NCBI GenBank assembly: GCA_001801425.1
Contig: MGXR01000017.1
Location: forward strand, 62,001 to 126,000
Direction: 5' to 3'
DNA from: Gammaproteobacteria bacterium RIFCSPHIGHO2_02_FULL_42_43
GTDB lineage: Bacteria > Pseudomonadota > Gammaproteobacteria > Coxiellales > Coxiellaceae
Length of the DNA: 64,000 nucleotides
Below, piece after piece: positions 9,705-57,396 of this stretch (within the stretch, counting starts at the first letter, position 1; the number at the start of each line of letters is the position of its first letter). Under the pieces are notes generated by a model that ran no database searches, was not told where the DNA came from, and was given only the letters and a program-made list of their open reading frames with translations. Made by a program: the position numbers and the translations under genes.

Positions 9705-9713
9705 GAAGTAAAC

Positions 9714-10751: not shown

Positions 10752-10760
10752 GAAAATACT

Positions 10761-11501: not shown

Positions 11502-12135
11502 AAATATCGTAGTGGTGGATTACGGCCTAGGTAATTTAAAAAGTTTACATAATGCTTTTCGTGCGATTGGCATTGAAGTGATTGTTTCCTCGAATCAAAA
11601 AAAAATTGACAATGCGGATGGAATGATTATTCCAGGCGTTGGTGCTTTTGGCGTTGCTATGCAAAAAATAAAGACATGTGGCTTGTTTGAAACCATCAAT
11701 CATTTCTTATATTCACAAAAACCTGTGTTAGGTATTTGCTTGGGAATGCAATTGCTATTTGAAAAAAGTGAAGAAGCTGTTGGCGTTTCTGGATTTTCTT
11801 ATTTTTTGGGTGACGTTAAAAAATTGAGCGTTGAAAATACAAAGAACATGCGTTTACCGCATATTGGCTGGAAGAAACTTAGTCAACACGAAAAAAGCAC
11901 GCCGCTATTTTCAAATAGCATTTTGTCCCATCTTTTTGACCAAACGCAATATTTCGTGCATTCCTTTATTGTAAATCCACAAAATTCGACAGAAATTTTG
12001 GCAACTTCACAATATGCTAAAAAAGAATTTGCTTGCGCTGTCCAGAAAAACAATGTAATTGGTGTGCAATTTCACCCAGAAAAAAGTCGTGCGCCGGGCT
12101 TAAATGTTCTGAAAAATTTTGTCGATCTATGTTAA
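11485..12135 (+). CDS. HisH-like glutamine amidotransferase (WbuY/HisH2 type)
   Basis: This class I glutaminase releases ammonia from glutamine and channels it through the HisF-like partner. The catalytic triad is complete: Cys85 in GICLGMQ, His197 and Glu199 in QFHPEKS. The oxyanion and PGVGAFG segments are also present, and the 216-residue length is normal for HisH. Position between HisF-like and WbpG-like genes, with overlap on the 5' side, matches the trio known for the acetamidino sugars of Pseudomonas and Legionella-type O-antigens. A role in histidine biosynthesis is unlikely, as no other his gene is nearby. Confidence 0.87.
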   Translation: MLIKNKNIVVVDYGLGNLKSLHNAFRAIGIEVIVSSNQKKIDNADGMIIPGVGAFGVAMQKIKTCGLFETINHFLYSQKPVLGICLGMQLLFEKSEEAVGVSGFSYFLGDVKKLSVENTKNMRLPHIGWKKLSQHEKSTPLFSNSILSHLFDQTQYFVHSFIVNPQNSTEILATSQYAKKEFACAVQKNNVIGVQFHPEKSRAPGLNVLKNFVDLC

Positions 12136-12154
12136 AGATTCAAAGGAGATTCAG

Positions 12155-13390
12155 GTGGGTATCGTGATAGAAAAAGTCGCTAAAAAAGAAGATGTTTTGT
12201 TTGGGCTACCCAGAGAAGTTAAGTTTTGTAAATCCTGCGTGATCTCTAATCAAAGACCGAACTCAACGATTGAATTTAAGCATACAAAATTAGACAAAAA
12301 AGAAGTGATTGGCTTTAATTCGGATTGCATTTGCTCGGCATGTCAATACAGCAAAATAAAAGATGAGGTGATCGATTGGAAAGCCAGAGATAAAAAATTA
12401 CTGCGATTACTAGAAAAATATCGCAGATCTGATGGCGGGTACGACGTTGTTGTCCCGGGAAGTGGTGGCAAAGACAGCGCCTATGCTTCCCATATTTTAA
12501 AATACAAATATGGAATGAACCCCCTGACAGTCACCTGGGCGCCACATTTGTACACGGATATTGGACGAAAAAATTTTGAAAACTGGATACACGTAGGCGG
12601 ATTGGATAATATTTTATTTACACCCAACGGCCGCTTACATCGTTTACTGACAAAATTAGCTTTCCATAATTTATTACACCCCTTCCAACCATTTATTGTT
12701 GGGCAACGCATTATTGGCCCATTGATTGCGGCGAAATTTGGCATTCCCTTGGTTATGTATGGTGAAAATCAAGCGGAATATGGAAATCAACTCAATGAAA
12801 ATTATGTACCCACTATGGATAAAAAATTTTTTTCAGCGGAAAATGCCCGTGAGATATTTTTAGGCGGAACATCTATCGCTAACATTATTCATGATCATAA
12901 TTTTTTACTTAATGATTTTACACCTTACATTCCTCCTGCTGCCGAATATTTAGAAAGCAAAAATATATCCGTTCATTACTTAGGTTATTATTTAAAATGG
13001 GATTCTCAGGAATGCTATTATTATGCATCTGAAAACACAAGATTTGTAGCGAACGATCAGAGAACAGAAGGAAGTTATTCTAAATATTCAAGCATTGATG
13101 ACAAAATTGATCCATTTCATTATTTTACAACCTACATCAAGTTTGGTATCGGGCGCGCCACTTACGATGCAGCACAAGAAATTCGCAATGGAAAAATTAC
13201 TCGTGAAGAAGGGGTTCACTTGGTAAAAAAATACGATCACGAATTTCCGCAAAAATATTTTAAGGAATTTTTAGAATATATCGACACCACAGAATCGGAA
13301 TTTTTTGAAATAATCGATCGCTTTAAATCCCCTCATTTGTGGGAAAAACAAGCTGGAACATGGCGCTTAAAATACACGGTTTATGACTAG
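12155..13390 (+). CDS. N-acetyl-sugar amidotransferase (WbpG/WbuX/PseA family)
   Basis: The family replaces the oxygen of an N-acetyl group with nitrogen, giving an acetamidino group, using ATP and ammonia from the HisH/HisF pair. The PP-loop ATP-pyrophosphatase motif is clear (PGSGGKDSAYA). The N-terminus carries two cysteine pairs (CKSC, then CICSAC) that may bind zinc. The frame is open from 12119, but a strong ribosome site AAAGGAG (12142-12148) lies 6 bases before the GTG at 12155, so I use that start (411 residues). The gene ends tail-to-tail with the cytidylyltransferase, overlapping it by 4 bases. Confidence 0.87.
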   Translation: MGIVIEKVAKKEDVLFGLPREVKFCKSCVISNQRPNSTIEFKHTKLDKKEVIGFNSDCICSACQYSKIKDEVIDWKARDKKLLRLLEKYRRSDGGYDVVVPGSGGKDSAYASHILKYKYGMNPLTVTWAPHLYTDIGRKNFENWIHVGGLDNILFTPNGRLHRLLTKLAFHNLLHPFQPFIVGQRIIGPLIAAKFGIPLVMYGENQAEYGNQLNENYVPTMDKKFFSAENAREIFLGGTSIANIIHDHNFLLNDFTPYIPPAAEYLESKNISVHYLGYYLKWDSQECYYYASENTRFVANDQRTEGSYSKYSSIDDKIDPFHYFTTYIKFGIGRATYDAAQEIRNGKITREEGVHLVKKYDHEFPQKYFKEFLEYIDTTESEFFEIIDRFKSPHLWEKQAGTWRLKYTVYD

Positions 13391-14097
13391 TTCTGATCGC
13401 CAAAAATAAATTTTGCAAGCTTAAAATCATCCGCTGTATCAATATCGATGCTTTTTAATAACGACATTTCATAGGGCAAACAAGGCTGAATAAAAAAACT
13501 TTTGTGTTTTAGAAATTCGTCTGTCCTCGCAATATAAATCGCACCATTCTGCGCGTACACTTTAGAAAGATGCTGTTTTGGTTTTTCTAAATCTTCCAAA
13601 TCAAAGAAAGGTATTAACGAATTATCTTCTTCTAGTGAAAACATTTTATGGGGATGACAGGATGGCTCAAAAACGCTAATTAAAGACGGGCTATTCGGTG
13701 AATTGAGTATTAATTCACAAGCTTGGTCAATATCTCTCGTTGTTCTTAAAGGCGATGTGGGTTGTAATAGAACAATATACTCAGATTCTATTTGGTGGTT
13801 TCTTTTTAACGATGTGATAACATCAACAACCACATCACTCATTAGTACATTATCTTCAGATAAGTGACTGAGTCTTTTATGAATAAAACACGATTTTTTA
13901 TCAATATCGGAAAGCAAGTCTTCAGAAATATTGGTTGTCAATATACATTGATCTACATATTCTGATTCAGAGGCTGCATCAATCGCATAACTCAACAATG
14001 ATTTTCCCAGTATTTTCTTTAAATTTTTATTGGGTAATCTTTTAGATCCTTCCCTTGCTGGAATAATAGCTGTAAAAATATTTACATGACTCATCAA
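13387..14097 (-). CDS. neuA: CMP-nonulosonate cytidylyltransferase (NeuA/LegF type)
   Basis: This enzyme activates the nine-carbon acid with CTP to the CMP-sugar. The CTP-binding motif IIPAREGSKRLPNKN is near the N-terminus, followed by LLQPTSPLRT and, near the C-terminus, IDIDTADDF, all typical of CMP-sialate, CMP-legionaminate and CMP-pseudaminate synthetases. The length of 236 residues fits. It is on the opposite strand to the neuC-neuB operon but converges on it. A separate PseF is at 54066 in the pse operon, so this one most likely serves the NeuC/NeuB product. The second Met codon (14094) is an equally good start. Confidence 0.88.
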   Translation of the reverse strand: MMSHVNIFTAIIPAREGSKRLPNKNLKKILGKSLLSYAIDAASESEYVDQCILTTNISEDLLSDIDKKSCFIHKRLSHLSEDNVLMSDVVVDVITSLKRNHQIESEYIVLLQPTSPLRTTRDIDQACELILNSPNSPSLISVFEPSCHPHKMFSLEEDNSLIPFFDLEDLEKPKQHLSKVYAQNGAIYIARTDEFLKHKSFFIQPCLPYEMSLLKSIDIDTADDFKLAKFIFGDQN

Positions 14098-16685: not shown

Positions 16686-18218
16686 CTATTTCAGCAAATG
16701 CGACACATGTTTCATTAAGTTTATTTTTTCGATATACCGCTCATTTCCCATAACGCTAACTGCTTCAGCGCCAACTACATTACTAATAAAACCAATTAAT
16801 TCAGCTGGCGCATCTTGGTAAGCATAAAGACTCGAGATGGCAAGCACTGCATCTCCTGCGCCAACACGATCTACAACATTATGTGCAAACGCAGGCACTT
16901 CATATATAGATTCATTTTTTTTCCCAACATAAACACCATTCTTCCCGCTGGTAATCATGACATTTTGATAATTATGTTCTTGCATTAATCGTTTTAATTG
17001 CTCTGGGGTTGAAAGATGTTTTTGACGATAATTGAGTTGCAATTCACGTGTTGCGATAGATACAAAATTTGCTTTTTGGTATTTTGAAATGCAATTAAAA
17101 CCGTTATTTCCCGCATTCGATTGTGTATTGACAGCAAGAAATTTTGCTTTCTGCGTAATAATCTCAATTGCATTCTGATTTAATAAACCATGTCCATAGT
17201 CCGCAACAATAGTTAGATCGTGATTATCTAATAATGCGTCAAGATGTTTTAGTAGTAATTCATTTTGCGCATCTTCTAAAAAATCATCATTAATTTCATA
17301 CACTTCAAATAATTTTTGCCGTAAATATTCCTCCACGTAACGACGCTTAACAATCGTTGGAGAATCTTTTTTGTAAATGGGTATCATTTTTACATTTGGT
17401 TTAAGATTTTTTTTAATCATTTCCTCATGTTCTGATTTTTCACCCAAATAAGTTACACAAGTTATTTCACTGCAAAATTCACTCAAATGATTGGCAAGCG
17501 CTAATATCCCGCCAGCATAAGTTTTACTATGGGATTCTTTTGCTACCAGTGTAGGTTCCTTTCCTGCTTTTCCAATCACATCGGAAAAATGATAAATGTC
17601 AACAATCGCCTCACCAACAACCAACGCTTTTAATTTTTTAGAACTCTCCAAGTAAGAAATAATTTTTTGAGGCGAGTATTTTTTCTTGAAATTATTTAAA
17701 TATGTGGTTACTTCTGCTGAAAATGGTGAAAAAAATTCATTTAATAATTCAGAGGAGCTGAATGTTACTTCACTCGTAAATACAGTTCTGCCACCCACTG
17801 CGCTAACCGCAGCATTTTCTTCATCAATTTTCCCAGTGATATCGTCCTCGCTATTTTTATATTCATCTCCTTTCGCGTACACAGTTGGTCGAATCAAGGA
17901 GATTGCCTCAACAGCGGTAGGCCATGAATTGATAATAACGAAATCAACACAATCGAGTGCTGCAACCGCTTCTGCGCGTAATTTTTCTGTGAATCGCGGG
18001 CGATTTGGACCCTTGTTAACAAAACGATCAGGGGTAATGGTCACCACTAATATATCACCATATTTTTTTGCTGCTTGAAAATGTTTGATGTGGCCAATAT
18101 GAAGCAGATCAAAAACACCGTGAGACTGAACAATTCTGGGCAAATAGTATTGCGATAGCAACTCATTGAACTCGACAAAGCTCACTATTTTTTCCCTTGC
18201 GTACGCGGTAACTTCCAT
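16686..18218 (-). CDS. Nucleotidyltransferase-PfkB sugar kinase fusion (HldE-like, reversed domain order)
   Basis: The N-terminal domain (about 30-165) is an HldE/RfaE-type nucleotidyltransferase with HGVFDLLHIGHIKH (HIGH at 40-43) and VVTITPDRFV. The C-terminal domain is a PfkB/ribokinase-type sugar kinase with TYAGGILALANHL and the signature DRVGAGDAVL. Classical HldE has the kinase first and the adenylyltransferase second, so the order is inverted. It probably phosphorylates and nucleotide-activates a heptose or similar sugar. The frame is open to 18323, but AGGAAG lies 6 bases before the ATG at 18218, which I chose (510 residues). It is the first gene of a leftward operon ending at 13387. 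Confidence 0.82.
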   Translation of the reverse strand: MEVTAYAREKIVSFVEFNELLSQYYLPRIVQSHGVFDLLHIGHIKHFQAAKKYGDILVVTITPDRFVNKGPNRPRFTEKLRAEAVAALDCVDFVIINSWPTAVEAISLIRPTVYAKGDEYKNSEDDITGKIDEENAAVSAVGGRTVFTSEVTFSSSELLNEFFSPFSAEVTTYLNNFKKKYSPQKIISYLESSKKLKALVVGEAIVDIYHFSDVIGKAGKEPTLVAKESHSKTYAGGILALANHLSEFCSEITCVTYLGEKSEHEEMIKKNLKPNVKMIPIYKKDSPTIVKRRYVEEYLRQKLFEVYEINDDFLEDAQNELLLKHLDALLDNHDLTIVADYGHGLLNQNAIEIITQKAKFLAVNTQSNAGNNGFNCISKYQKANFVSIATRELQLNYRQKHLSTPEQLKRLMQEHNYQNVMITSGKNGVYVGKKNESIYEVPAFAHNVVDRVGAGDAVLAISSLYAYQDAPAELIGFISNVVGAEAVSVMGNERYIEKINLMKHVSHLLK

Positions 18219-18347
18219 AATCTTCCTGTGATAATTGCTAATTATTACTATATCGCTCGCCAATGAAGATGCGATACTACCACACTTCATCACCCGCGGC
18301 ATATCCTGATTAAAACGAACCATGAAATGAATTCATGTTTGCTAAAT

Positions 18348-24216: not shown

Positions 24217-25260
24217 TCATTCTGCGCATTTTATTAACGCCCTCACAATTTCTTTATTTTTTAAATCATCAACTGCGTGGTTAATGTTTTCTAATGAGTA
24301 TTTTTTACTGATCAATTTTTCCAGTGGCAATAATTTTTTTTGATAAAATTTATCAAACTTTTTAACATCACTATCAGGCACACTCTCACCACCCCATGTC
24401 CCTTCAATTTTCTTACCGCAAATTAATTCAAATGGATCCAGTGATATTTTTTCATGATGCGCTGGATGAGATGCAAAAATACATTTTCCACCATTGCGTC
24501 GCACCACATTAAATCCTAGCTCAATGGTTTTCGCAAGGCCCGCTGACTCAAAACAATAATCAACACCACCATCGGTTAACATCCTGACACACTCAATCAC
24601 ATTTTCTATCTTGGAGTTGACGCAATGCGTTGCACCCAACATCTTCGCCAATGCTAATTTCTCAGAATTAACATCGATAGCAATAATCTTTTTAAAATTC
24701 CGCAGTTTTGCAGATAAAAGTGCGCTCAATCCAATTCCACCCAATCCCAAAAATGCAACTGTTCCACTAAAATTCTCGGGAACCGTATTCAACACCATCC
24801 CTAGTCCGGTTGGAATTGCGCAGCCATATAACACGGATAACTCACTGGGTGTGTGTCGTGGTTTTTTAACAACTCGATTTTCAGATACAACAGTGTAATC
24901 ACTGAAAGTGGTAACAGATCCCGCATTAACTCTCAAACCATCGGTGGTTTGATATTGCGTTGCACCGCCCTCTAATCCGAACCCCTTAATCCAACCCAAA
25001 ATAACTTCATCACCAATTTTTATTTTTGCAACCTGTTCGCCAACATCAACAACAACACCAACACCTTCATGCCCCAGCAAATGCGGTAAATATTTATCTT
25101 CGCCGCGAAGACCTGAAATTTCCATTAATTGACTATGACAAAGACCCGCATAATTCATTTTAACCAGCGCCTGACCTTTTTTTAACTTAGGAGTCACGAT
25201 GTTATTGAGAATCATCAATGGTTTGTTATGCTCCATTAGGATCGCGGCGGTCATTAGCAT
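24217..25260 (-). CDS. Medium-chain zinc alcohol dehydrogenase-like oxidoreductase
   Basis: This MDR-family dehydrogenase carries catalytic-zinc ligands Cys41 (AGLCHS) and the GHE pair His64-Glu65, and the NAD-binding GLGGIGLSALLSAK. The four-cysteine structural-zinc loop of many alcohol dehydrogenases is not seen. The start at 25260 overlaps the stop of the E1-beta gene as TAATG; the ATG at 25254 is an alternative. It follows the E1 alpha/beta pair directly, as acetoin- or keto-acid-related MDRs often do. Its substrate here is more likely a keto-sugar or a carboligation product than ethanol. Confidence 0.85.
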   Translation of the reverse strand: MLMTAAILMEHNKPLMILNNIVTPKLKKGQALVKMNYAGLCHSQLMEISGLRGEDKYLPHLLGHEGVGVVVDVGEQVAKIKIGDEVILGWIKGFGLEGGATQYQTTDGLRVNAGSVTTFSDYTVVSENRVVKKPRHTPSELSVLYGCAIPTGLGMVLNTVPENFSGTVAFLGLGGIGLSALLSAKLRNFKKIIAIDVNSEKLALAKMLGATHCVNSKIENVIECVRMLTDGGVDYCFESAGLAKTIELGFNVVRRNGGKCIFASHPAHHEKISLDPFELICGKKIEGTWGGESVPDSDVKKFDKFYQKKLLPLEKLISKKYSLENINHAVDDLKNKEIVRALIKCAE

Positions 25261-26309
25261 TAAAACGGCCCCCGAAACCAATCGCCTGGCACATCGTGCG
25301 GGCAATTATTTTTTGAAACAAACGTCGGTATTTTTGCGCCAAGCATTTTTGCAACCTCACGCACAATATCACTGGCTGTTGGATGAAAATGCTTGGTGAG
25401 ACCAAAGCTGGTGGGCTCTGGATTGTCGGGATTGGCAATCATTTTCGGCGCAGATTTTAAATCTGAAAATAAATGACAACTGACACGCGAAATAATTTCA
25501 CTCGCCACTGAACACATCGGTTGACTTGTATCTAGCGCTAAAATACGTTTTGTTTTTCGCACTGAATTAAAAATAGTTTCTGCATCCAGGGGCCGGATCG
25601 TGCGAATATCCATCACTTCACAATCAATATTAAATTGCGACAAATATTCTGCAGCACAGAGCGCTTCAACAATCATGTATGACATACCAACCAGAGAAAT
25701 ATCTTTACCAACACGTACTATTTTCGCTGCACCGATTGGCACCTCATAATCTTCTGCGGGCACATGACTCACACTATTGTGCAACCAACGATGCTCCAAA
25801 AAAACCACCGGATTTTGATCACGAATACTCGATAACAACAGCCCTTTTGCGTCATACGCTGATGCGGGTGACACTACTTTTAACCCCGGAATATGCGCAA
25901 ACCACGATTGTAAATTTTGAGAATGCGTCGGGCCCTGCCCCCAACCGCGCCCCATAATTAATCGAATTACAATTGGAATAGATGACTGACCGCCAAACAT
26001 GTAATGCCATTTTGCCGCTGAATTCACCAACTGATCCATCACCAACAAGAAAAAATCCAAGCGTTGATGCGACATCACCGACGGGTATCCACCCAACGCA
26101 AGCCCCACCGCAACACCCGTCATCGCATTCTCAGAGGTTGGCATGTCAAACACGCGATCTTTTCCAAACTTCTCTTGCAAGCCTTCTGTTGTACCAAAAA
26201 TATGTTTGGGATCATCAGTACCTAATCCATAACAAAGCAATCGATTATTTTCTTGCATTGCGATGTGTAGCGCTTCATTAATCGCCGCTGTGTAAGTTAG
26301 TTGGCGCAC
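25260..26309 (-). CDS. 2-oxoacid dehydrogenase E1 beta-like subunit (TPP-dependent)
   Basis: This 349-residue beta subunit has the hallmarks of PDH/acetoin dehydrogenase E1 beta: MTGVAVGLALGGYPSV, FLLVMDQLVNSAAKWHYMFGGQ, RLIMGRGWGQGPTHSQ and, near the C-terminus, DIRTIRPLDAETI. With the alpha subunit it would form a TPP-dependent heterotetramer that decarboxylates a 2-oxoacid. No E2 (lipoyl) or E3 gene is present, and the setting is a sugar operon. A carboligase-type or acyl-donating role, for example adding a two-carbon unit to a keto-sugar, is a possible inference. It overlaps the alpha gene by 13 bases. Confidence 0.87.
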   Translation of the reverse strand: MRQLTYTAAINEALHIAMQENNRLLCYGLGTDDPKHIFGTTEGLQEKFGKDRVFDMPTSENAMTGVAVGLALGGYPSVMSHQRLDFFLLVMDQLVNSAAKWHYMFGGQSSIPIVIRLIMGRGWGQGPTHSQNLQSWFAHIPGLKVVSPASAYDAKGLLLSSIRDQNPVVFLEHRWLHNSVSHVPAEDYEVPIGAAKIVRVGKDISLVGMSYMIVEALCAAEYLSQFNIDCEVMDIRTIRPLDAETIFNSVRKTKRILALDTSQPMCSVASEIISRVSCHLFSDLKSAPKMIANPDNPEPTSFGLTKHFHPTASDIVREVAKMLGAKIPTFVSKNNCPHDVPGDWFRGPF

Positions 26310-27301
26310 ACTGTCTCCTGATGCATTGTTGCAGCGTATTCGCCACTGATTGCTTCTACTTTTTCTGGAAATGACGATTGCTCGGCAAATAAAAATGCTT
26401 TTTGAATTTCCTGCTCAATTTCTACAGTAATTTTTTCCAATCGTGATTTATTTAAAATATTTTCTTGCAATAATTTTTTTTGAAAAGAGGAAATAGAATC
26501 TTTTTCTCGCCATGATTCATATTCTGACACACTGCGATAACCAATATCATTGTCAAAATTAGAACCGCAATGTTCACGATAGCGATAGGTATAAAACTCA
26601 ATAAATCCAGGGCCATTTCCGCTGCGAACGTGATCGATCATTTTTTGTGATGCGTGATAACAATCCAATACATCATATCCATTTTCAACAAAATCAGTTG
26701 CAGCACCAATGGCATTCGCCATTTGATGTATTTTTCTACCCTCAGGCTGTCGTTTGCAAAGGGGGGTATAAACAGAATAAAAATTATTTTCGCAAATAAA
26801 TAAAACCGGTAATTTTTTTAAAACAGCAAAATTGAGCGATTCGTAGAATACACCTTCTTCAACCGCGCCATCGCCAATATAAATGACACTGATATCATCG
26901 CGCTGATTCAATTGAATTGAAAAACCCAATCCCACACCGATAGGAATTGTGTTGCCAACAATGGCGGTACTTCCCATAAATCCTTGCGCTTGATCAACCA
27001 AATGCATGGAACCGCCGCGGCCACGACAACAACCCGTCACCTTGCCATGAATTTCCGCGATCATCGCATTTAACTCACCACCCTTTGCAAGATAATGCGC
27101 GTGCGCACGATGTCCGCTGACTGCATAATCTGTTTTTCGTAATAACGCGCCTGTTGCTGCTGCGACCGCTTCTTGCCCGATGGATAAATGAACGGGCGTG
27201 CGCATTTTTTGATGCACATAATTATCAGCGATCGCTTCCTCGATCATGCGGATGCGTAACATTTGGTAAAATAAATTATGGTGTAAACCAATAGTAGTCA
27301 C
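26297..27301 (-). CDS. 2-oxoacid dehydrogenase E1 alpha-like subunit (TPP-dependent)
   Basis: The thiamine-diphosphate motif is intact, with GDGAVEEG at 143-150 and the closing ENN at 171-173. The upstream SGHRAHAHYLAKGG and GRGGSMH segments are typical of PDH/acetoin E1 alpha, including the His used to bind the substrate. The length of 334 residues is normal. It overlaps the beta gene (13 bases) and the methyltransferase gene upstream (26 bases), so it is firmly part of the operon. Lack of E2/E3 partners and the sugar-gene setting make ordinary oxidative decarboxylation doubtful. Confidence 0.87.
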   Translation of the reverse strand: MTTIGLHHNLFYQMLRIRMIEEAIADNYVHQKMRTPVHLSIGQEAVAAATGALLRKTDYAVSGHRAHAHYLAKGGELNAMIAEIHGKVTGCCRGRGGSMHLVDQAQGFMGSTAIVGNTIPIGVGLGFSIQLNQRDDISVIYIGDGAVEEGVFYESLNFAVLKKLPVLFICENNFYSVYTPLCKRQPEGRKIHQMANAIGAATDFVENGYDVLDCYHASQKMIDHVRSGNGPGFIEFYTYRYREHCGSNFDNDIGYRSVSEYESWREKDSISSFQKKLLQENILNKSRLEKITVEIEQEIQKAFLFAEQSSFPEKVEAISGEYAATMHQETVCAN

Positions 27302-27929
27302 CCGTGTATCCCGCTTCTAAAAATAATTTCTTCCAGTCATCGACATGCAATACTGTTTTTGCTGTTAAATTCCAATCTTCCATTCGTTTTTTTTCTTCAT
27401 CATCATGATAAGCGTCAACAGTAATAAAACTATATTTTCGCTTCACGCGCTCAATTTCTTTCAATGCTTGAATTAATTCTTTGCGTTCAAAATTATGCAA
27501 GGTGGTAATGGAAATAACACAATCAAAACTCTTGTCTGGAAATGGTAACTTCGTTGCGCAAGCAACATGGCAATGCGCCTTTACGCTATCGATTGCGTTG
27601 CTAATTGCATACTCTGAAATATCAATTCCTGCAACAGAAATCCCGGGAATTAACCGCGCCATGTCATGCAACATAAATCCCTTGGCACAACCAATATCTA
27701 AAACAGAGCTGCTGAGGTTCAGTTGATATTGCTTCTGAAAATCATGAATAACGAGTTCCCAATATTTTGGATGATAATGAAAACCGCCATAACCCTGATC
27801 ACGTGAACCATCAAAAAACGCTTTTCCAAATTGTCGCGCAACAGCGCGATCTGTTTCTGTTTTTTGCAGGCCACGCTCAGCAACATCACGCTTGGAACGC
27901 GGATAATTTTTCATTAAATTAATTTCCAC
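27276..27929 (-). CDS. Class I SAM-dependent methyltransferase
   Basis: This 217-residue methyltransferase has SAM motif I (VLDIGCAKGFML), motif II (VAGIDISEYAI) and motif IV (FDCVISITTLHNFE). It is of the small Methyltransf_11/25 type. It is locked into the operon by overlaps of 26 bases with the E1 alpha gene and 11 bases with the PhyH gene. It has no metal-binding N-terminus like the C-methyltransferases, so an O- or N-methylation is more likely. The substrate is unknown. Confidence 0.82.
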   Translation of the reverse strand: MEINLMKNYPRSKRDVAERGLQKTETDRAVARQFGKAFFDGSRDQGYGGFHYHPKYWELVIHDFQKQYQLNLSSSVLDIGCAKGFMLHDMARLIPGISVAGIDISEYAISNAIDSVKAHCHVACATKLPFPDKSFDCVISITTLHNFERKELIQALKEIERVKRKYSFITVDAYHDDEEKKRMEDWNLTAKTVLHVDDWKKLFLEAGYTGDYYWFTP

Positions 27930-28776
27930 ACAGAGCCCTCTTCTCTATTGAATATATTTTTTCAACATACTTAGCAATGTCGCCCTTAATTAATGACTGA
28001 TAATATCCCGGTCTCGTGTTGGTTGGCGCCAGCATACTTTTTATACGTAAATCAATGCTAATCCTGGTTTTGTGTGAAAAGTTTTGCGCGCGATGTATAT
28101 GATGTGCAAAAAAAATAATTGCTTGCCCTACATCTGGAGTAAGCAATTTAATTTTGGTTTGATCAAGTTTAGACATTGTGTCATCACTTTTAGGTGCATA
28201 TAAAAATCCCAATTCATTCGCAAGAGAACCCTTTGTTACTTTTTTTCTAAATAAATTTTTCTCTTCAGTTAAGGAAATATTATCTGCAGGTACCAAATGG
28301 GAATCTTTAACAACCATCAATCCAGCGCCTGTTTCAAGCGGGAAAATCGGGAACCAAAAATTCAGCTCCCAATGTGAATTTCCATAAAAGGTATCCCTAT
28401 GCCAATCAATGAAGTCGTCTTCCTGATTTGGTCGTGAAATTCTTAAATACACATCTGACTGGATATCAATATCAGGGCCAAAAAGCGCCACAAAATACTC
28501 GATGTTATCCAATAATAAATTTTTTACTAATTGTCTTTCGACAATACAATCCTTTGCTTTTTTTATCAGCTGTAAACGCGAATCATCATCAATTTTCTGC
28601 TCATGAAATTCTACGGGATCAAAAGAAAATATTGATTTAATCTGATCCTGAATAACTTTTATGTGTTGCGTATTTTTAAAATACAAAACAGCATATCCGT
28701 CTTCACAAATCTGCGCTTGTTTTTTGGTTGCCAACTCACTCTGATTGTTCACAAAACCTCCATAGCAAAACACCAT
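27919..28776 (-). CDS. Phytanoyl-CoA dioxygenase (PhyH) family Fe(II)/2-oxoglutarate oxygenase, copy 1
   Basis: The double-stranded beta-helix core carries an intact iron triad His126-x-Asp128 (WHRD) and His228, with the 2-oxoglutarate-binding Arg238 (HKTRISIDLR). PhyH-type enzymes hydroxylate unactivated carbons, and in LPS loci they are suspected of sugar or acyl hydroxylation. The ATG at 28776 directly follows the stop of the aminotransferase gene. A GTG at 28752 has a GGAGG site just upstream, but with only 4 bases of spacing. Two other PhyH genes lie at 33499 and 40365, with low mutual similarity, so three different substrates are plausible. Confidence 0.83.
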   Translation of the reverse strand: MVFCYGGFVNNQSELATKKQAQICEDGYAVLYFKNTQHIKVIQDQIKSIFSFDPVEFHEQKIDDDSRLQLIKKAKDCIVERQLVKNLLLDNIEYFVALFGPDIDIQSDVYLRISRPNQEDDFIDWHRDTFYGNSHWELNFWFPIFPLETGAGLMVVKDSHLVPADNISLTEEKNLFRKKVTKGSLANELGFLYAPKSDDTMSKLDQTKIKLLTPDVGQAIIFFAHHIHRAQNFSHKTRISIDLRIKSMLAPTNTRPGYYQSLIKGDIAKYVEKIYSIEKRALCGN

Positions 28777-29901
28777 TCATACACATACAAATTTTGTAAT
28801 TTTTTCAATAACACAGTTTACCTCTTCATCACGTAACTCAGGATGAACCGGCAAGCTCAACATTTCATTCATCAATCGTTCTGCTACCGGAAAATCGCCC
28901 AATCGATACCCCAAATTTTTGGCTGCGGGTTGCAAATGAAGCGGCACAGGATAATGCACGCGCGTATCAACACCGTTATTTTTTAAAAATTGCGCCAATG
29001 CATCACGTTTATTGCTTTGAATCACAAAATTATGATAAACAGAAAATATATCATGATGATCAGTTGGCGTTTTCACCAGGTGATGTAAACCGTGATGATA
29101 TTTCGATGCATTGAGTCGACGTTTTTCATTCCATTGATCCAAGTATTTTAGTCCAACCGACACCAGCTTTGCTTGCACCGCATCCAAACGTGAATTCAAA
29201 CCCCATTGCGTGCACGTATCCCTATCTTTCAATCCATGATTGCGCAATAACTGCAATTTCGCATAATGCGATTGATTTTTTGCAACTACAATTCCACCAT
29301 CGCCATACACATGCAAATTTTTGAGGGGATGCAAACTAAAACAACCAAAATCCCCAATCGTTCCCGTCATTTTTCCTTGAAATTTTGCACCAATGGATTG
29401 CGCTGCATCTTCAATCACAAACAAATGATGCTGCGTTGCGATTGCCGTAATTGCGGACATATCCACAGGCCTTCCCGTTAAATGAACGGGAATTATCGCT
29501 TTTGTTTTTGCTGTAATGTGTTTTTCAATTTCATTGACATTAATATTTAAATCATCACTGACATCGCAAAATACAGGTTTAGCACCCACAGCCACGACAG
29601 CACCTGCGGTTGCCACAAAAGAATTCACGGGAATAATCACTTCATCGCTTGCGCCAATTTCTAATACTTTTAACGCTAGAATAATAGCATCGGTGCCATT
29701 GGCAACCGTTAACACATAAGGCGTTTGCAAATAATCAGATAATTGTTTTTCGCATGCCTCTGTCCATTCGCCAAAAATATAATTTCCCGATGAAAATACA
29801 GCGTCCACGGCTGATAATATTTCTTCGCGATGCAATGCATAGCGGCGTTTAAAATCAACAAAAGGCACTTGCAATTGCGTTTTATTTTCTTCGATGCGCA
29901 T
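28777..29901 (-). CDS. DegT/DnrJ/EryC1/StrS sugar aminotransferase
   Basis: This PLP-dependent aminotransferase converts a keto-sugar nucleotide to an amino sugar with glutamate. The PLP lysine lies in FSLHPLKNLHVYGDGG. NGTDAIILAL, VHLTGRP and IEDAAQSIG match the fold-type I sugar transaminases. The GDGG after the lysine resembles 3-keto-sugar transaminases (QdtB/FdtB/WbpE type), not the GEGG of 4-amino types such as PseC. It adjoins a paralogue at 29901 with a TAATG overlap. The pair may act on two positions or two sugars. Confidence 0.88.
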   Translation of the reverse strand: MRIEENKTQLQVPFVDFKRRYALHREEILSAVDAVFSSGNYIFGEWTEACEKQLSDYLQTPYVLTVANGTDAIILALKVLEIGASDEVIIPVNSFVATAGAVVAVGAKPVFCDVSDDLNINVNEIEKHITAKTKAIIPVHLTGRPVDMSAITAIATQHHLFVIEDAAQSIGAKFQGKMTGTIGDFGCFSLHPLKNLHVYGDGGIVVAKNQSHYAKLQLLRNHGLKDRDTCTQWGLNSRLDAVQAKLVSVGLKYLDQWNEKRRLNASKYHHGLHHLVKTPTDHHDIFSVYHNFVIQSNKRDALAQFLKNNGVDTRVHYPVPLHLQPAAKNLGYRLGDFPVAERLMNEMLSLPVHPELRDEEVNCVIEKITKFVCV

Positions 29902-31043
29902 TAATAAAATTCCAAAATAAGTTCAATCATGTCATTTAAATCATTTTCAGAAATAAATTCATGCACGGGCAGAGACAATGTTTTTTTAGAAATTTTTTCA
30001 GCAACGGGAAAATCACCTGGACGATATCCCAAATAATCTGCGGCAGATTGTAAATGCATAGGAACAGGATAATGAATTTTTGCATCCACGCCATTTTCAA
30101 TTAAATGCTGCTTTAATACATTGCGATTTTCACAAACTATCGAATATAAATGATAAACCTGTTTGAACTCTCGCTCGCGTTTGGGAATGGTGATTTCTGA
30201 AATCGTTTGCAACGCAACATCTAAATAATTGGCATTATAAATTCGCGCGCGCGTAATAACATCTAATTTACTGAACAAATGATCGGCAACGACCGCTTGA
30301 ATCGTATCTAATCTTGAATTATAAGAAAATTGCACACATTCATCGCGCCCTTTTAAACCATGATTTCGCATCAGTCGCAGTCGATCGGCGATTTCATCTG
30401 ATTGTGTGGTAATGATGCCACCGTCTCCCCACACATTTAAATTTTTCAGTGGATGAAAACTAAAACAACCGATATCGCCCAATGTTCCTGCATAACGATT
30501 TTTATAAGTTGCTTGGATCGCATGACATGCATCCTCAATAACGAATAAATTATTTTTTTTCGCAATAAAATTAATGTCGTCCATGCGACACGGTTTCCCC
30601 GCCCAATGCACAGAGATAATCGCTTTGGTATTTTTGGTTATCTTGGATTCAATTTGATTGGGATCCAAATTATAATCCGATAAAATATCGGCAAAAACAG
30701 GCCTAGCACCGGCTGTTACAATTGCACCGATGGTGGCGTAAAATGTGAATGGGGTGGTAATCACTTCATCACCCGGCTGCACACCCAATGCTTTTAAGCT
30801 TAGAAATAAAGCATCGGTGCCACTACCGACTCCAATTGCATGTTTTGAATGAATACTATTTTTAAATCTATTTTCAAAATCATCCACTGGTTTTCCCAGC
30901 GTAAAATCATTGCTCATGACAACATTTTTAATCTTTTCTAAAATAATGTCGGCATCGGAAAATTGTTGTGATAAATAATTATGGTTAATCCGTAATTTTT
31001 TGTCTTGTGTATATTGCTCAGGTAAAAAATTGGCGACAGTCAT
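29901..31043 (-). CDS. DegT/DnrJ/EryC1/StrS sugar aminotransferase (paralogue of 28777)
   Basis: This 380-residue PLP transaminase has the Schiff-base lysine in CFSFHPLKNLNVWGDGG, VGSGTDALFLSLKALG near the N-terminus and IEDACHAIQ. It is clearly paralogous to its downstream neighbour over the whole length, and also has the GDGG form. An ordinary locus needs one such enzyme per amino sugar, so two in tandem suggest a diamino sugar or two products. It could also supply the 4-amination that the NeuC/NeuB pathway needs and lacks locally. The start is 2 bases after the C-methyltransferase stop. Confidence 0.88.
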   Translation of the reverse strand: MTVANFLPEQYTQDKKLRINHNYLSQQFSDADIILEKIKNVVMSNDFTLGKPVDDFENRFKNSIHSKHAIGVGSGTDALFLSLKALGVQPGDEVITTPFTFYATIGAIVTAGARPVFADILSDYNLDPNQIESKITKNTKAIISVHWAGKPCRMDDINFIAKKNNLFVIEDACHAIQATYKNRYAGTLGDIGCFSFHPLKNLNVWGDGGIITTQSDEIADRLRLMRNHGLKGRDECVQFSYNSRLDTIQAVVADHLFSKLDVITRARIYNANYLDVALQTISEITIPKREREFKQVYHLYSIVCENRNVLKQHLIENGVDAKIHYPVPMHLQSAADYLGYRPGDFPVAEKISKKTLSLPVHEFISENDLNDMIELILEFY

Positions 31044-32283: not shown

Positions 32284-33270
32284 CTAAGGTTTATGAATGT
32301 ACTCTAATGGAAATGTCTTAATAACACTTAAATTTGAACACAACCAGTTAATTGTTCTATTTAATCCCTGCTCCAAATCTATTTTTGGAAGCCACCCTAA
32401 TTCATTTTGAGCTTTATCTGTTTTCATACAATAAACAGCATCTTTTCCAGGTCTCTCTGGAGCGTGAGAGACTAGACTATCATAGTCAGTATTTAATTGA
32501 GTGCAAATTTTTGCAACAAGTTTGGCAATTGAAATGGGCGATTCAGAAGTGAAATGGTAAGTCTCGCCCAGTTTTCCGCGTTGAATAACGCAATCAATTG
32601 CTCTTGCCACGTCATCGCCATAAATAAATGCGCGTTCCGAAACACCACCACCATGTAACAATAATTTTTTTCCTGTGAGCGCATAAATGATAGTTCTTGG
32701 AATAATGCGATAAAGCTGCTGATGCGGACCATAAAAATTTGCGAAACGCGTCAAAATTACTGGGAACTGATATTGCTGATGAAAGGCTTTTAAGCTCATA
32801 TCGATCGCTGCATGAGAGACAGCATACGGTGTTGATGGATTAAATATTTTTGTTTCATCGACAGCGTTATCCGTATTACCATATACCTCCGGTGTTGACA
32901 CTCGAATATAACGCTTTAAAAAATCGCATTGTCTTAAATAATTATGTAATCGCACCTTTGAAACAAAGTTAGTTTGATACCATTGCTCTGGATTTTCCCA
33001 GCTTTCCGCAACCATACCTTGACCCGCAAAATCTATAACGAAATTTGGTTTTTCTATATTAATTAAAGCGGTTAATTCATTGAAATTCGTATTAATGTCA
33101 CATTGATAAAATTGAAATAATTTTATATGTGGATTTTTTGCATAAACCAATAGCAACGGATGCGGTTCCGCTGAACGACTAACGCCAACCACTCCCCGCT
33201 CTCTCGTTAATAAATAATTAACGAGAGATGCGCCCGCAAAGGAATTGCTGCCTAAAATGAGATACTTCAA
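32284..33270 (-). CDS. NAD-dependent epimerase/dehydratase-like SDR with YxxxH active site
   Basis: This extended SDR of the GDP-mannose or dTDP-glucose 4,6-dehydratase type has the cofactor segment GSNSFAGASL near the start, STPEVYG at 125-131 and RFANFYGPHQQ. The usual Tyr-x3-Lys is Tyr149-Ala-Val-Ser-His153; the codon is CAT, so Lys is replaced by His. The dehydratase Asp of STDE is Pro. It may be a reduced or altered enzyme. The start is TTG (33270), and the region just upstream is the decayed end of another epimerase gene, so the start was probably shaped by recombination. Confidence 0.78.
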   Translation of the reverse strand: MKYLILGSNSFAGASLVNYLLTRERGVVGVSRSAEPHPLLLVYAKNPHIKLFQFYQCDINTNFNELTALINIEKPNFVIDFAGQGMVAESWENPEQWYQTNFVSKVRLHNYLRQCDFLKRYIRVSTPEVYGNTDNAVDETKIFNPSTPYAVSHAAIDMSLKAFHQQYQFPVILTRFANFYGPHQQLYRIIPRTIIYALTGKKLLLHGGGVSERAFIYGDDVARAIDCVIQRGKLGETYHFTSESPISIAKLVAKICTQLNTDYDSLVSHAPERPGKDAVYCMKTDKAQNELGWLPKIDLEQGLNRTINWLCSNLSVIKTFPLEYIHKP

Positions 33271-33280
33271 GTACTGACAT

Positions 33281-33505
33281 CCAGTAATTTCATCATTTTT
33301 AAATTATAGTAAAATAATCTTCGTTTTTTAATTTTCTTGCTGAAGTTGGAACACAATTTCCTGAGTAGCATTCCCTACTACCTTCTTAGACTTACATCCA
33401 ATCAGAAACAATTTATCAAAACAAGCATGATAGGATCGCAGATCGTTGATATGAATATTAGAACACATTCAAATATCGCCAAAAATAGCCACTTAAAATC
33501 AAAAA
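33281..33505 (-). pseudogene. Decayed 3' copy of the epimerase gene at 38802
   Basis: Read leftward, 33281-33445 matches the last about 55 codons of the gene at 38802: DLRSYHACFDKLF versus DPRSYRVCSDKLL, and NATQEIVFQLQQ versus IAIQEMVFQFQQ. Further up, about 33455-33505 matches an internal part (KVAIFGDI-stop-MCSNIHIND versus KVMTLFGGDQVRPNIHIDD), with about 145 bases between the two deleted. Stops and frameshifts show that it is dead. It fills the gap between the SDR gene at 32284 and the PhyH gene at 33499. Even the TTGAAGTAT at the start of the 32284 gene has a counterpart after the 38802 gene. Confidence 0.8.
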
Positions 33506-38801: not shown

Positions 38802-39743
38802 TCAAATTCCTACACCCGACAACTTCATCATTTTTAAATTGTAACAATGCTCTTCGTTCTTTAATTTTTTTTGCTGAAATTGAAACACCATTTCCTGAAT
38901 TGCGATTTCTACTGTTTTTTTAGGCTTAAATCCTGTCGACAATAATTTATCGGAGCAAACACGATAAGATCGTGGATCACTGGAAGGTGTCACTTGAATT
39001 TCCGAAGGCACATATTTTTTAACAAGATTGGCAATCTCTAAAATAGATAAATTTTCAAATCCTGCATTATAAATCCCCTGGATGCCTGGGTTTTTTAAAA
39101 AAAATAAATACAAGTCGGTAATGTCATCGATGTGAATATTGGGGCGTACTTGATCTCCGCCAAAGAGGGTCATCACTTTATTCGAGAGCGCTTGTATTGT
39201 CATCATATTGACTGACACATCTAATCGCATGCGCGGCGAATATCCGCAGACGGTTGCGGGGCGCACAATTTGCAATGTAATTTTATTTTGGTAACTCAGC
39301 AAAACCCGTTCGGTCACCATTTTTGTTTTGTTATAATCTGAAATTGGATTTAACGGTAAATCTTCGGTTACTTTTTCTGCATCATTCACACCATACACGC
39401 TGCCCGATGACGCATAAATAAATTGTTTTACGTAATTTTGTATCGCTAATTCTATTAGCTGCATCATTGCAAGCGGCCCAATTTCCCAACTTAATTTTGG
39501 ATTTAAATCAGAGCAGGGATCGTTGGAAACAGCGGCCAGATGAATCACTACATCCGTATTTTTAAACCAGCTCGGATTTGGCGTGCGTGTATCTGCTTTC
39601 AAAACAGTTAAGTTGGCATGCGGTTGTAAATAATTTCCAAACCATTGCGTGTCAACAACAATCACTGTGTGATTTTCTTGCAATAATTTTGGCACCAAAA
39701 CAGAACCTTTGTAGCCGCAGCCGCCGGTAACTAAAATTTTCAT
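38802..39743 (-). CDS. NAD-dependent sugar epimerase/dehydratase (extended SDR)
   Basis: This 313-residue extended SDR has NAD-binding GGCGYKGS at 7-14, SSGSVYG with the catalytic Ser-containing block, and Tyr-x3-Lys in DYNKTK. The HLAAVSNDPCSDLNP and RPATVCGYSPRMRLD segments are typical of NAD-dependent epimerases that act on heptose- or hexose-type nucleotides. The ATG overlaps the stop of the SIS isomerase gene by 4 bases, which suggests that they act in one pathway. A decayed copy of its 3' end is at 33281. The precise reaction is unknown. Confidence 0.85.
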   Translation of the reverse strand: MKILVTGGCGYKGSVLVPKLLQENHTVIVVDTQWFGNYLQPHANLTVLKADTRTPNPSWFKNTDVVIHLAAVSNDPCSDLNPKLSWEIGPLAMMQLIELAIQNYVKQFIYASSGSVYGVNDAEKVTEDLPLNPISDYNKTKMVTERVLLSYQNKITLQIVRPATVCGYSPRMRLDVSVNMMTIQALSNKVMTLFGGDQVRPNIHIDDITDLYLFFLKNPGIQGIYNAGFENLSILEIANLVKKYVPSEIQVTPSSDPRSYRVCSDKLLSTGFKPKKTVEIAIQEMVFQFQQKKLKNEEHCYNLKMMKLSGVGI

Positions 39744-40345
39744 AGTAATTCCCGCAGTCGATCAGTCAGGTAATGCAAAATAAAGGCGTGACCAATTTCA
39801 ACTTGACCATACTCTTTTGAATTTAACCAAAGATTGTAATGACCAATTTGACGCAGCACGTTATTTTCAGTAAAACCACTTAGCGTGATTACAGTGGCGC
39901 CCTGATTTTTAGCAACATCAACCGCATTGATAATATTTTTTGAATTACCGGAGCTGCTGATAGCAATCAGCACATCTTCTGATTGAATAAACCGCGCTAA
40001 TTGTTTTGCATAAACATACTCATATCCATAATCATTGGATAAACAAGTTGTCACTGCGGGATCCAGCATCGCCGTTGCTTTCATTTTCGCCATATTTAAA
40101 AAGTCGATCACTGCGTGACTTGCAATGGCTGCGCTGCCGCCATTGCCTGCAATATAGGCTGTGCCAAATCGATCACGACAAATAAGTAAGATATTCAGAA
40201 TTTCATGCAACCCTTTTTCAAGAATTATTGTTTCATAAGAAAAATTGGTAATGGTTGTGTTCACTAACACACGTGAAAATCGATCAATGCAGGTTATTAA
40301 ATCCAAATACCCCGTTTTTGGTTTTTCTAATTCAACGCAATCCAT
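39740..40345 (-). CDS. SIS-domain isomerase (GmhA-like phosphoheptose isomerase)
   Basis: The SIS fold is clear: GNGGSAAIASHAVIDFL, CLSNDYGYEYVYAKQL, AISSSGNSKNIINAVDVAK and the C-terminal EIGHAFILHYLTDRL. GmhA-like enzymes convert sedoheptulose 7-phosphate to heptose 7-phosphate. The kinase-nucleotidyltransferase at 16686 could then use such a heptose. The frame is open to 40378, inside the PhyH gene, but GAAGGG lies 9 bases before the ATG at 40345, which I chose (201 residues). It overlaps the epimerase gene by 4 bases. A hexose-specific SIS enzyme is possible. Confidence 0.82.
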   Translation of the reverse strand: MDCVELEKPKTGYLDLITCIDRFSRVLVNTTITNFSYETIILEKGLHEILNILLICRDRFGTAYIAGNGGSAAIASHAVIDFLNMAKMKATAMLDPAVTTCLSNDYGYEYVYAKQLARFIQSEDVLIAISSSGNSKNIINAVDVAKNQGATVITLSGFTENNVLRQIGHYNLWLNSKEYGQVEIGHAFILHYLTDRLRELL

Positions 40346-40364
40346 GTCACTCATCCCTTCGTTA

Positions 40365-41123
40365 CTATCGCTGCACAAACAACATAAATTCCATGCTGAT
40401 TCTACAATATCGACCCCTGTTTACCGCGCCAGCATGCAAAAGTTTATCATGAAACACAACAGCATCACCTGAGACAGTATTCAAAAGCTCGATGTTTAAC
40501 TTATTCTCGTCATCATCAAATTGCGGTTTGACAAAACCATGGCGAAATTCCCCATGATAACGCCATTGTTTTTTTTGAGAATCAGAAACCACCTTGAGTC
40601 CATTTAAACCAGGCTCACAACATAGCGCAACCCATACCTTGACAGCTTTCATTCCAGAGGGTGGTTTAACACCATGACCTAATTGCAAAAACCAATCATC
40701 CGCATGCAATGGCCCAATATCCGAGGGTTGGTTAGGCCTCACTAAACGCCAAACGAATTCTTCATATCCAATATTTTCTTCATCCGCAACGATAAAAGGG
40801 CCGTATGCTTTTTCAAGATTTTTAATCAGCGATAAAGATCGCATAACCTTAGCCGCCTCTCTGGAAAAAATCCTATTAGGCTTAGCCCAAAGCGCGCCAT
40901 GATCCACCAAATGTGCCAACTCATGATATCGTTCAATGCCAATGTCAGAAAAACGCTTCCAGTAAGTTGAGTTATTTTTTTTAATGATATTCAGCCATTG
41001 TTCTCTGACAATAGACTTGAGCAATTCAACTTCTTTTTGGTCCAGTTTAAATTTCAAATAAAAACCGCGACCCTGCTCAATCTCTTGATCAACTGCATGC
41101 TCGATACATTCCATGTTTATCAT
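40365..41123 (-). CDS. PhyH family Fe(II)/2-oxoglutarate oxygenase, copy 3
   Basis: This 252-residue PhyH-type protein has the iron triad His140-x-Asp142 (LHADDW) and His230 (LLHAGAVNRG), with a likely 2-oxoglutarate arginine at 238 or 241 (RYCRISMEF). The GLKVVSDSQK block matches the family. It is divergent from the copies at 27919 and 33499. It lies between the SGNH/MBOAT pair and the heptose-type SIS and epimerase genes. A hydroxylation of a sugar acid or deoxy sugar is a reasonable but unproved guess. The third-codon Met at 41114 is an alternative start. Confidence 0.82.
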   Translation of the reverse strand: MINMECIEHAVDQEIEQGRGFYLKFKLDQKEVELLKSIVREQWLNIIKKNNSTYWKRFSDIGIERYHELAHLVDHGALWAKPNRIFSREAAKVMRSLSLIKNLEKAYGPFIVADEENIGYEEFVWRLVRPNQPSDIGPLHADDWFLQLGHGVKPPSGMKAVKVWVALCCEPGLNGLKVVSDSQKKQWRYHGEFRHGFVKPQFDDDENKLNIELLNTVSGDAVVFHDKLLHAGAVNRGRYCRISMEFMLFVQR

Positions 41124-52371: not shown

Positions 52372-52374
52372 GCA

Positions 52375-56892: not shown

Positions 56893-56915
56893 GTCTCTTT
56901 TCCGATAAGGATATT

Positions 56916-56985
56916 GGTAGTGTAACTTTCTTTCTGAAAATTTCAATACTGGTAGTGTAACCTTCTTTTTGAAAATTTCAATTTT
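56916..56985. repeat. Two tandem 35-base direct repeats upstream of pseB
   Basis: 56916-56950 and 56951-56985 are direct repeats with about four mismatches, beginning GGTAGTGTAA and containing TGAAAATTTCAA, itself an inverted repeat. They lie in the 504-base gap 56893-57396 between divergent pseB and the LIC12162-type gene. They may be operator sites for regulation of the pse operon, or slipped-strand duplication. The rest of the gap shows no recognisable gene; the 73-codon open frame at 57186 has no known features. Confidence 0.6.
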
Positions 56986-57396
56986 TCTAAACATGCCGCC
57001 AATTTTTATTTTGATTGTTGCAATCAGAGGAACATCGGTGCTATATTGCCTCGATTGATTTTTGCACCAGGGATTCAAAGCGTAGCCTATATTCTCAAAG
57101 AAAATAGAGAAAATTGAGTTGTAGAACCAATTTATGGATATAAACATAAAATACCCGCAATTACTTTTTTTAAAAGAATCAAAAAATGTGTCTCCATACA
57201 GGGAAGATCTTTAGTATACCTGCGTTTTTAAAATTCACCCTTCACGAATCAATGCGGGATGAGGAAGCATTACAAAAAATAGGGATACCAGATAGACTAT
57301 ATTTTTACCAAAATACTGCTAGTTTTGTAAGATTAAACTCGTTTTTTGCGTTAAAAATAACTGGCATTGGAAATGCGAGCAGCGCTAAAAAAAGAA

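Follow-up and report, generated by a model that had tools for sequence, protein, structure and literature searches.

The window analysed here, a stretch of 64,000 nucleotides (positions 62,001 to 126,000) from contig MGXR01000017.1 of Gammaproteobacteria bacterium RIFCSPHIGHO2_02_FULL_42_43, encodes the alpha and beta subunits of an E1-type 2-oxoacid dehydrogenase within a sugar operon. From the comparisons described below we consider it fairly probable that this pair is an alpha2beta2 thiamine diphosphate (ThDP) carboligase which moves an acetyl group from pyruvate to a 4-keto-heptose nucleotide, and not an acyl-CoA-forming dehydrogenase. We found two intact subunits, a contig without E2, a separate E1-beta clade with changed active-site positions, a conserved gene cassette and a transketolase in several relatives of the cassette that lack the pair. 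A sugar-branching carboligase had been put forward in the initial annotation of this DNA and is still the best-supported reading. It is less new than was implied there, as antibiotic pathways already provide examples of sugar branching by E1-type enzymes (AviB1/AviB2, KbDH). New is the setting in a heptose-type surface cassette which is spread over many phyla and has an exchangeable ThDP enzyme, together with a fixed tail in E1-beta.

Properties of the E1 pair

Both genes lie on the minus strand. E1-alpha (26297..27301, 334 amino acids (aa), GTG start) matched Pfam E1_dh at 1.1e-64 and carries the GDG-x26-NN motif at 26783-26875 (GDG143-145, NN172-173). E1-beta (25260..26309, 349 aa, GTG start) matched Transket_pyr and Transketolase_C. 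The ThDP motif as well as Glu60 and His129 of E1-beta are retained as in the E2-dependent E1 enzymes of pyruvate dehydrogenase (PDH), branched-chain 2-oxoacid dehydrogenase (BCKDH) and acetoin dehydrogenase, in line with the earlier view that both subunits are intact. Against the NCBIfam PDH models the two subunits reached 299.2 of 393.85 bits and 292.1 of 321 bits, in both cases less than the cut-off. PF00456 (Transketolase_N) was not among the Pfam matches of the pair, whereas split transketolases elsewhere do match it; nor does the pair have the YerE-like make-up, in which one chain combines the TPP_enzyme N, M and C domains. E1-alpha overlaps the upstream S-adenosylmethionine (SAM) methyltransferase gene (27276..27929, minus strand) by 26 nt and E1-beta by 13 nt. 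Moreover, E1-beta shares one base (TAATG) with the gene of a zinc-type medium-chain dehydrogenase/reductase (MDR; 24217..25260, minus strand), provided that ATG 25260, and not the TTG of a longer frame, is the start of the latter. These overlaps, of which those with the methyltransferase and the MDR had been recognised before, suggest translational coupling.

The initial annotation had reported that neither E2 nor E3 is encoded in the 64 kb, and both statements held. The window is part of contig C17 of a 1.86 Mb genome, in which a PF00198 profile search detected three E2 genes, located on contigs C13, C18 and C20, and none on C17. Similarly, tblastn with the C13 E2 as query found no E2 in the window or in 20 kb of flank on either side, where one had been set against the carboligase idea. 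A scan of the window in six frames for the E3 redox motif, which was not based on hidden Markov models, gave no match; this motif was present in locus L173 beside the genome's own C18 E2. The one further E1-alpha match of the genome lies on C13 and is followed by genes for E1-beta and for an E2 that has a lipoyl domain.

Relatives were collected by an E1-beta alignment scan of a named genome collection, which found at least 549, and the best 80 were kept. As these 80 loci were chosen by similarity to the window, counts on them apply to this clade and not to E2-less E1 pairs in general. The loci belong to 20 named phyla plus two unassigned records and are labelled as Bacteria (77), Archaea (two, both on contigs of 3-4.5 kb) or not at all (one); relatives in phage and plasmid collections were all below 60% identity. 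An E2-like open reading frame (ORF) was found in 0/80 loci, many of which are cut by contig ends, whereas the same query detected one in 5/5 other E2-type E1 loci and at its own locus (n = 6; L043, L044, L045, L049, L053 and L054).

E1-beta sequences of 89 window-type pairs were compared with 32 E2-type sequences, the latter from 29 loci and three Protein Data Bank (PDB) chains; the truncated L113 and four Rhodopseudomonas duplicates are not part of the comparison. Six of the 29 E2-type loci have a demonstrated E2-like ORF, and the other 23, from Rhodopseudomonas-family genomes, are presumed to encode PDH from their 37-41% identity and long frames. At 22 core positions one residue occurred in at least 95% of the window-type and in at most 10% of the E2-type sequences. 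These signature positions include H81, R83, D85, R121, W123, Q125 and R174 and, as judged from E1 structures, presumably surround the substrate. Gln125 was fixed in 89/89 window-type sequences, and H81, R83, D85, W123 and R174 were common to 10/10 more distant pairs. Matching changes were observed in E1-alpha, e.g. H64 for Tyr and E243 for Gly. In the E1-beta tree (115 rows including three PDB sequences, with 19 near-copies dropped; quick IQ-TREE, SH-aLRT only) the 19 E2-type rows formed one side of a branch with 100% SH-aLRT support, and the window enzyme was placed on the other. The clustering with ordinary PDH or acetoin E1 that had been held against the carboligase idea was not seen. Judged by sequence, the window pair is not an ordinary PDH or acetoin E1.

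The signature was also examined in 30 actinobacterial loci with flanks of 1.5 kb. Five carried the signature and 0/5 had an adjacent E2-like frame; among the loci without signature such a frame was adjacent in 17/25 and absent in eight (P 0.009). Two of the five signature loci (L206 and L207) contain the same genes as L060 and L079, which had been used to define the signature, and only three are new. This comparison may weakly support a link between the signature and the absence of E2. A pair with the six-residue signature (H81, R83, D85, R121, W123 and R174) and a GFAGPY end is found on plasmid pSGRIFU1 of Streptomyces griseofuscus (L168), where it adjoins condensation-domain and acyl-carrier genes and not sugar genes.

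Besides, the window E1-beta ends with a tail of the pattern DxPxxxFxGPF (D339-F349; 25263..25295, minus strand). This pattern ends E1-beta in 79/80 of the closest loci, the exception being L113, which is cut by a contig end, and a G[PA][FYW] end was absent from all other clustered ORFs in the loci. E2-type E1-beta proteins stop about 20 residues before the window type. In Bacillus PDH the C-terminus of E1-beta takes part in E2 docking, and a fixed extension at this end therefore suits an enzyme that no longer meets E2. The fold of E1-beta resembles that of PDH E1-beta but also those of split transketolase and DXS. The AlphaFold monomer was good overall, with a predicted local distance difference test (pLDDT) score of 89.6, but values were 51-61 in the tail and 57 at residues 121-130; both regions are poorly defined, and the model does not place the tail.

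The surrounding cassette and its ThDP enzymes

The genes around the pair point to a heptose-type nucleotide sugar, a feature missed in the initial annotation. Relatives of a GmhA isomerase, a heptose kinase/nucleotidyltransferase and Cj1427 are all encoded on the minus strand of the window, namely a GmhA-like SIS isomerase that is closest to phosphoheptose isomerases (39740..40378), an HldE-like fusion of a nucleotidyltransferase and a following PfkB kinase (16686..18323) and an NAD-dependent short-chain dehydrogenase/reductase (SDR; 38802..39743). For the latter, the single solved relative at E 1e-30 or better was 6vo6/6vo8 (3.1e-40), which is named 'putative sugar-nucleotide epimerase/dehydratease' in the PDB and which we take to be the heptose C4-dehydrogenase Cj1427. 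Its YxxxK motif reads YNKTK in the alignment. Cj1427 is described in the accessible text as oxidising GDP-heptose at C4 with 2-oxoglutarate as electron sink (PMC10680097). Genes annotated as or resembling L-2-hydroxyglutarate oxidase lie near the cassette in L170, L200 and L201 and in 4/80 loci (L067, L071, L103 and L134), which fits a C4-dehydrogenase that recycles via 2-oxoglutarate.

ORFs of at least 130 aa were clustered into families, and carrier proteins (below 130 aa) thus stand outside the clustering. Across all 80 loci we counted the Cj1427-like dehydrogenase in 57, the methyltransferase in 53, the SIS isomerase in 50, DH46, an SDR of the 4,6-dehydratase/epimerase kind (32284..33270, minus strand), in 50, the MDR in 43, the HldE-like fusion in 29 plus 18 of a second type, a YerE-like enzyme in 25 and a DegT aminotransferase in 20. 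In the 40/80 well-covered loci, i.e. those flanked by 8 kb or more on either side, the corresponding numbers were 38 for SIS, 34 for Cj1427-like, 33 for the methyltransferase, 32 for DH46, 30 for any HldE-like protein, 28 for the MDR, 16 for YerE-like and 10 for DegT. A keto-sugar-forming enzyme, as judged by similarity to Cj1427, is thus encoded in the window and in 34/40 of these loci. Three or more of five core genes were present in 51/80 loci from 14 named phyla, while a SIS or Cj1427-like match occurred in 0/6 E2-type E1 loci. A methyltransferase relative was located directly upstream of E1-alpha in 39 of the 74 E1 pairs examined, and within the genus Rhodopseudomonas the pair was present in 10/16 genomes. 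Rhodopseudomonas pentothenatexigens JA575 and Roseibium marinum DSM 17023 are among the bearers of the cassette. The closest relative (L055; E1-beta 84% identical) has a very similar gene set and comes from a metagenome-assembled genome labelled Verrucomicrobia, by transfer or by a binning error. A B12-binding radical SAM family (F20, e.g. L082:10073-11626) was found in 7/80 loci and directly follows E1-beta in five.

The Cj1427-like protein was searched against the class (274 genomes), which gave 24 places, and the surroundings were read at 13 of them. Besides the window, eight places have a Cj1427-like dehydrogenase of at least 44% identity. An E1 pair was found in 0/8 of these loci in the stretch read, and a transketolase in 6/8. 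It is split into genes for an N- and a C-subunit in L200, L201, L202, L204 and L205 and has an interrupted N-half in L199; the genomes of all six loci are without an E1-alpha match at E 1e-60. In L200, L201 and L202 the transketolase adjoins DH46 on one side and, on the other, a methyltransferase relative followed by an MDR, which is much like the placement of the E1 pair in many cassettes. In addition, a family including a Pfam-checked split transketolase (L062) occurs near the E1 pair in 6/80 loci. As far as gene content tells, the pathway usually has a ThDP enzyme which is not necessarily an E1 pair, and most simply the pair and the transketolase would be two ways to place a C2 unit on the same ketone. 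At L183 (a 3 kb contig), L237, L238 and L239, where the dehydrogenase is 35-40% identical, no SIS, DH46, methyltransferase, MDR or transketolase match was obtained, and kinship of the dehydrogenase at this level therefore does not mark the cassette. At L239:14295-14700 (genome G173, from the family of the window) each strand carries one short E1-alpha-like fragment (57% over 37 aa for one, 32% over 94 aa for the other).

The YerE/JanthE-like family of the acetolactate-synthase type is exemplified by L059:10710-12533. The closest solved structure of this representative is 8rph, which bears only the name ThDP-binding protein in the PDB and which we assume to be JanthE. Since the family stands beside the E1 pair in 25/80 loci, the two are not simple substitutes. 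In the window and its 20 kb flanks, tblastn detected neither a split transketolase nor a YerE-like protein.

Proposed reaction, precedents and alternatives

In the proposed pathway the GmhA-like isomerase and the HldE-like kinase/nucleotidyltransferase would lead to a nucleoside diphosphate-heptose, which the Cj1427-like enzyme would oxidise at C4. E1-alpha/beta would decarboxylate pyruvate and transfer the resulting acetyl carbanion to the ketone at C4. The MDR, the methyltransferase, the aminotransferases and an oxygenase would modify the branched sugar for a surface polysaccharide. The C4 ketone is assumed as acceptor because the C4-dehydrogenase is the commonest ketone maker in the cassette; in the same way we infer the alpha2beta2 make-up, the pyruvate donor, the 4-keto-heptose acceptor, the product, the branch position and the order of the steps. 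A more tentative extension, possible rather than probable, is that a pathway shared by many phyla leads to a surface sugar of nine carbons that has not been described so far, a heptose with a 4-C-acetyl (or hydroxyethyl) branch. The branch would be made by an exchangeable ThDP module, with acetyl attached by an E1 pair or hydroxyacetyl by a split transketolase and a YerE-like enzyme present as well in some cases, and the DxPxxxFxGPF tail would replace the E2-docking end and close or gate the site for the nucleotide sugar. If the proposal is right, many genes named 'alpha-ketoacid dehydrogenase' or 'transketolase C-terminal domain-containing protein' become sugar-branching enzymes, and a new class of higher-carbon surface sugars is predicted in bacteria from Chlamydiota to Prochlorococcus. 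Moreover, the E1 pair and the split transketolase in one pathway would offer a natural comparison of how ThDP enzymes choose a ketone acceptor.

According to the accessible part of a review, E1-type pairs ('alphaKADH2') that add acetyl from pyruvate to keto sugars form an established class of antibiotic biosynthesis enzymes, with feeding and knock-out evidence for aldgamycin, in vitro coupling of ketones with pyruvate by KbDH-alpha/beta (kibdelomycin) and about 120 clusters with such an E1 by prediction; structures of E1-type or transketolase enzymes that accept ketones are not available yet (PMC12247030). In the accessible text of other reports, AviB1/AviB2 of avilamycin are described together with the nonheme-iron enzyme AviO2 and Pau11/Pau12 of paulomycin with a mutation of pau11 (PMC4425429), and branching by EvdU5/EvdS3 of everninomicin is a hypothesis (PMC10338323). 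Like these systems, the window has an E1-alpha/beta-type pair without E2 in a nucleotide-sugar cluster. However, the known pairs are part of actinomycete antibiotic clusters, whereas the window pair belongs to a polysaccharide locus with a heptose-type cassette found in many phyla and has the GPF tail. A comparison with YerE-type carboligases had been suggested in the initial annotation. YerE, ErwE and JanthE share the probable reaction type and the lipopolysaccharide setting (PMC12247030, accessible part), but they are single chains of the acetolactate-synthase-type ThDP superfamily and not E1 enzymes. Split transketolases (structure 6yaj/6yak; proposals for miharamycin and amipurimycin) are also two-gene ThDP enzymes and occur in cassette loci without the E1 pair. 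They differ by Transketolase_N in place of E1_dh and by the expected transfer of hydroxyacetyl instead of acetyl; for miharamycin, addition of hydroxyacetyl to a keto sugar by a transketolase has been proposed (PMC12247030, accessible part). The capsular heptose pathway of Campylobacter jejuni (GmhA, kinase, nucleotidyltransferase, Cj1427) has a GmhA-like isomerase and a C4-dehydrogenase in common with the cassette, but its accessible description names no ThDP enzyme and does not contain the word 'transketolase' (PMC10680097). In the literature covered, which mostly left out subscription papers, we found no account of an E1 pair within a surface cassette of the heptose type.

The bradyrhizose O-antigen cluster of photosynthetic Bradyrhizobium (eleven genes including a 4,6-dehydratase; PMC4743980, accessible part) first looked like a match. 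Among 391 Rhodopseudomonas-family genomes, 49 have reaction-centre genes, and 15 of these 49 are presumed photosynthetic Bradyrhizobium. All 15 had a single E1-beta match (E 1e-40 or better) of 38-40% identity, which was taken as PDH, and the link was dropped. The E1 pair appears to be absent from these genomes, in a search that covered E1-beta and not the other cassette genes. For R. palustris CGA009 a C4-branched O-antigen sugar has been reported (PMC9912281, accessible part), for which a YerE-like enzyme is assumed (PMC12247030, accessible part); no link to the pair is claimed.

The pair might instead work at the level of sugar phosphates, where a DXS- or transketolase-like enzyme would join a 2-oxoacid to an aldose phosphate and the SIS isomerase and the HldE-like kinase would act on the resulting special ketose phosphate. 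The SIS isomerase in 38/40 well-covered loci, the resemblance of the E1-beta fold to split transketolase and DXS, and the transketolase in pair-less relatives would agree with this, and the exchange would be accounted for as well. However, sedoheptulose 7-phosphate is already supplied by central metabolism, and pyruvate as donor would yield a 1-deoxyketose that a GmhA-type isomerase should not accept. Furthermore, transketolase and DXS carry an Asp at the place of the invariant Gln125 of the window type, four residues ahead of the His aligned with His129, and we regard such a synthase as unlikely. It seems very improbable that the pair is an ordinary PDH or acetoin E1 which borrows E2 and E3 from elsewhere in the genome: three E2 genes are at hand and the fold is that of a PDH E1-beta, but the separate clade, the NCBIfam scores below cut-off and the 22 changed core positions, together with an extension at the end that meets E2 in the Bacillus enzyme, speak against it. 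The acetyl group could also go to a different ketone than that at heptose C4, e.g. to a ketone formed by DH46 or by the MDR, or to a keto sugar derived from a hexose. DH46 and the MDR are frequent too, and known E1-type branching occurs at C3 or C4 (PMC12247030, accessible part); yet the Cj1427-like protein is the commonest likely ketone maker (34/40) and its characterised relative acts at heptose C4, which makes another ketone clearly unlikely. Marginally less probable again is the supply of an acyl or aldehyde unit to a different acceptor, such as a carrier protein or a DegT-derived amino sugar, which would result in the unusual acyl substituent also considered in the initial annotation. The two aminotransferases in the window operon and the same-signature relative beside condensation-domain and acyl-carrier genes on the Streptomyces plasmid would suit this role, but DegT occurs in only 10/40 well-covered loci, and no acyltransferase was among the annotated families of at least seven loci, in a clustering that starts at 130 aa.

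Several points weigh against the carboligase acting on a 4-keto-heptose nucleotide. As the family searches started from window proteins, window-like genes are favoured, and the likeness to AviB, Pau and KbDH was drawn from their descriptions and not from their sequences. The word heptose is itself our interpretation, as both the SIS protein and the HldE-like protein fall far short of the curated cut-offs for true GmhA and HldE, and the sugar may thus differ from ordinary D-glycero-D-manno-heptose. Where a transketolase lies near a GmhA-like isomerase, its role could just as well be to supply a ketose phosphate, and in the 25/80 loci with a YerE-like enzyme the branch could be the work of that enzyme, which would leave a different function to the E1 pair. 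Moreover, two of the eight loci with a Cj1427-like dehydrogenase had no match to a ThDP enzyme in the 20 kb read. In L203 (66% identity) neither E1, transketolase nor YerE-like was matched, and its genome (G016) has an E1 pair on other contigs. L236 (47%; genome G027, from the family of the window) has relatives of the dehydrogenase, which looks interrupted, of HldE and of the methyltransferase. As far as the stretch read shows, both loci lack part of the remaining cassette or have it interrupted. Finally, among the bearers of the cassette none with a solved polysaccharide was identified.

Other genes and clusters in the window

Two DegT aminotransferases, optional members of the cassette by sequence match, are encoded at 29901..31043 and 28777..29901 on the minus strand. 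They are followed by a gene for a protein resembling 2-oxoglutarate-Fe(II) oxygenases (27919..28776, minus strand), which matched TIGR04324 below cut-off (65.4 of 150 bits), had no Pfam match and has a counterpart in few relatives. At the lysine position of YxxxK the 50 relatives of DH46 have Arg (29), Lys (13) or His (8); the window protein has His, and DH46 may not be a normal 4,6-dehydratase. Just upstream of DH46 a fragment of 38 residues (33334-33447, minus strand) shows 55% identity to the Cj1427-like dehydrogenase and is perhaps what is left of a former copy next to DH46, the arrangement seen in other cassettes. Two more sugar clusters, at 7621-14097 and 51322-57147, resemble nonulosonic acid routes as judged by reading the sequence, from which their NeuB/NeuC/HisF/HisH/WbpG-like and Pse-like names were taken.

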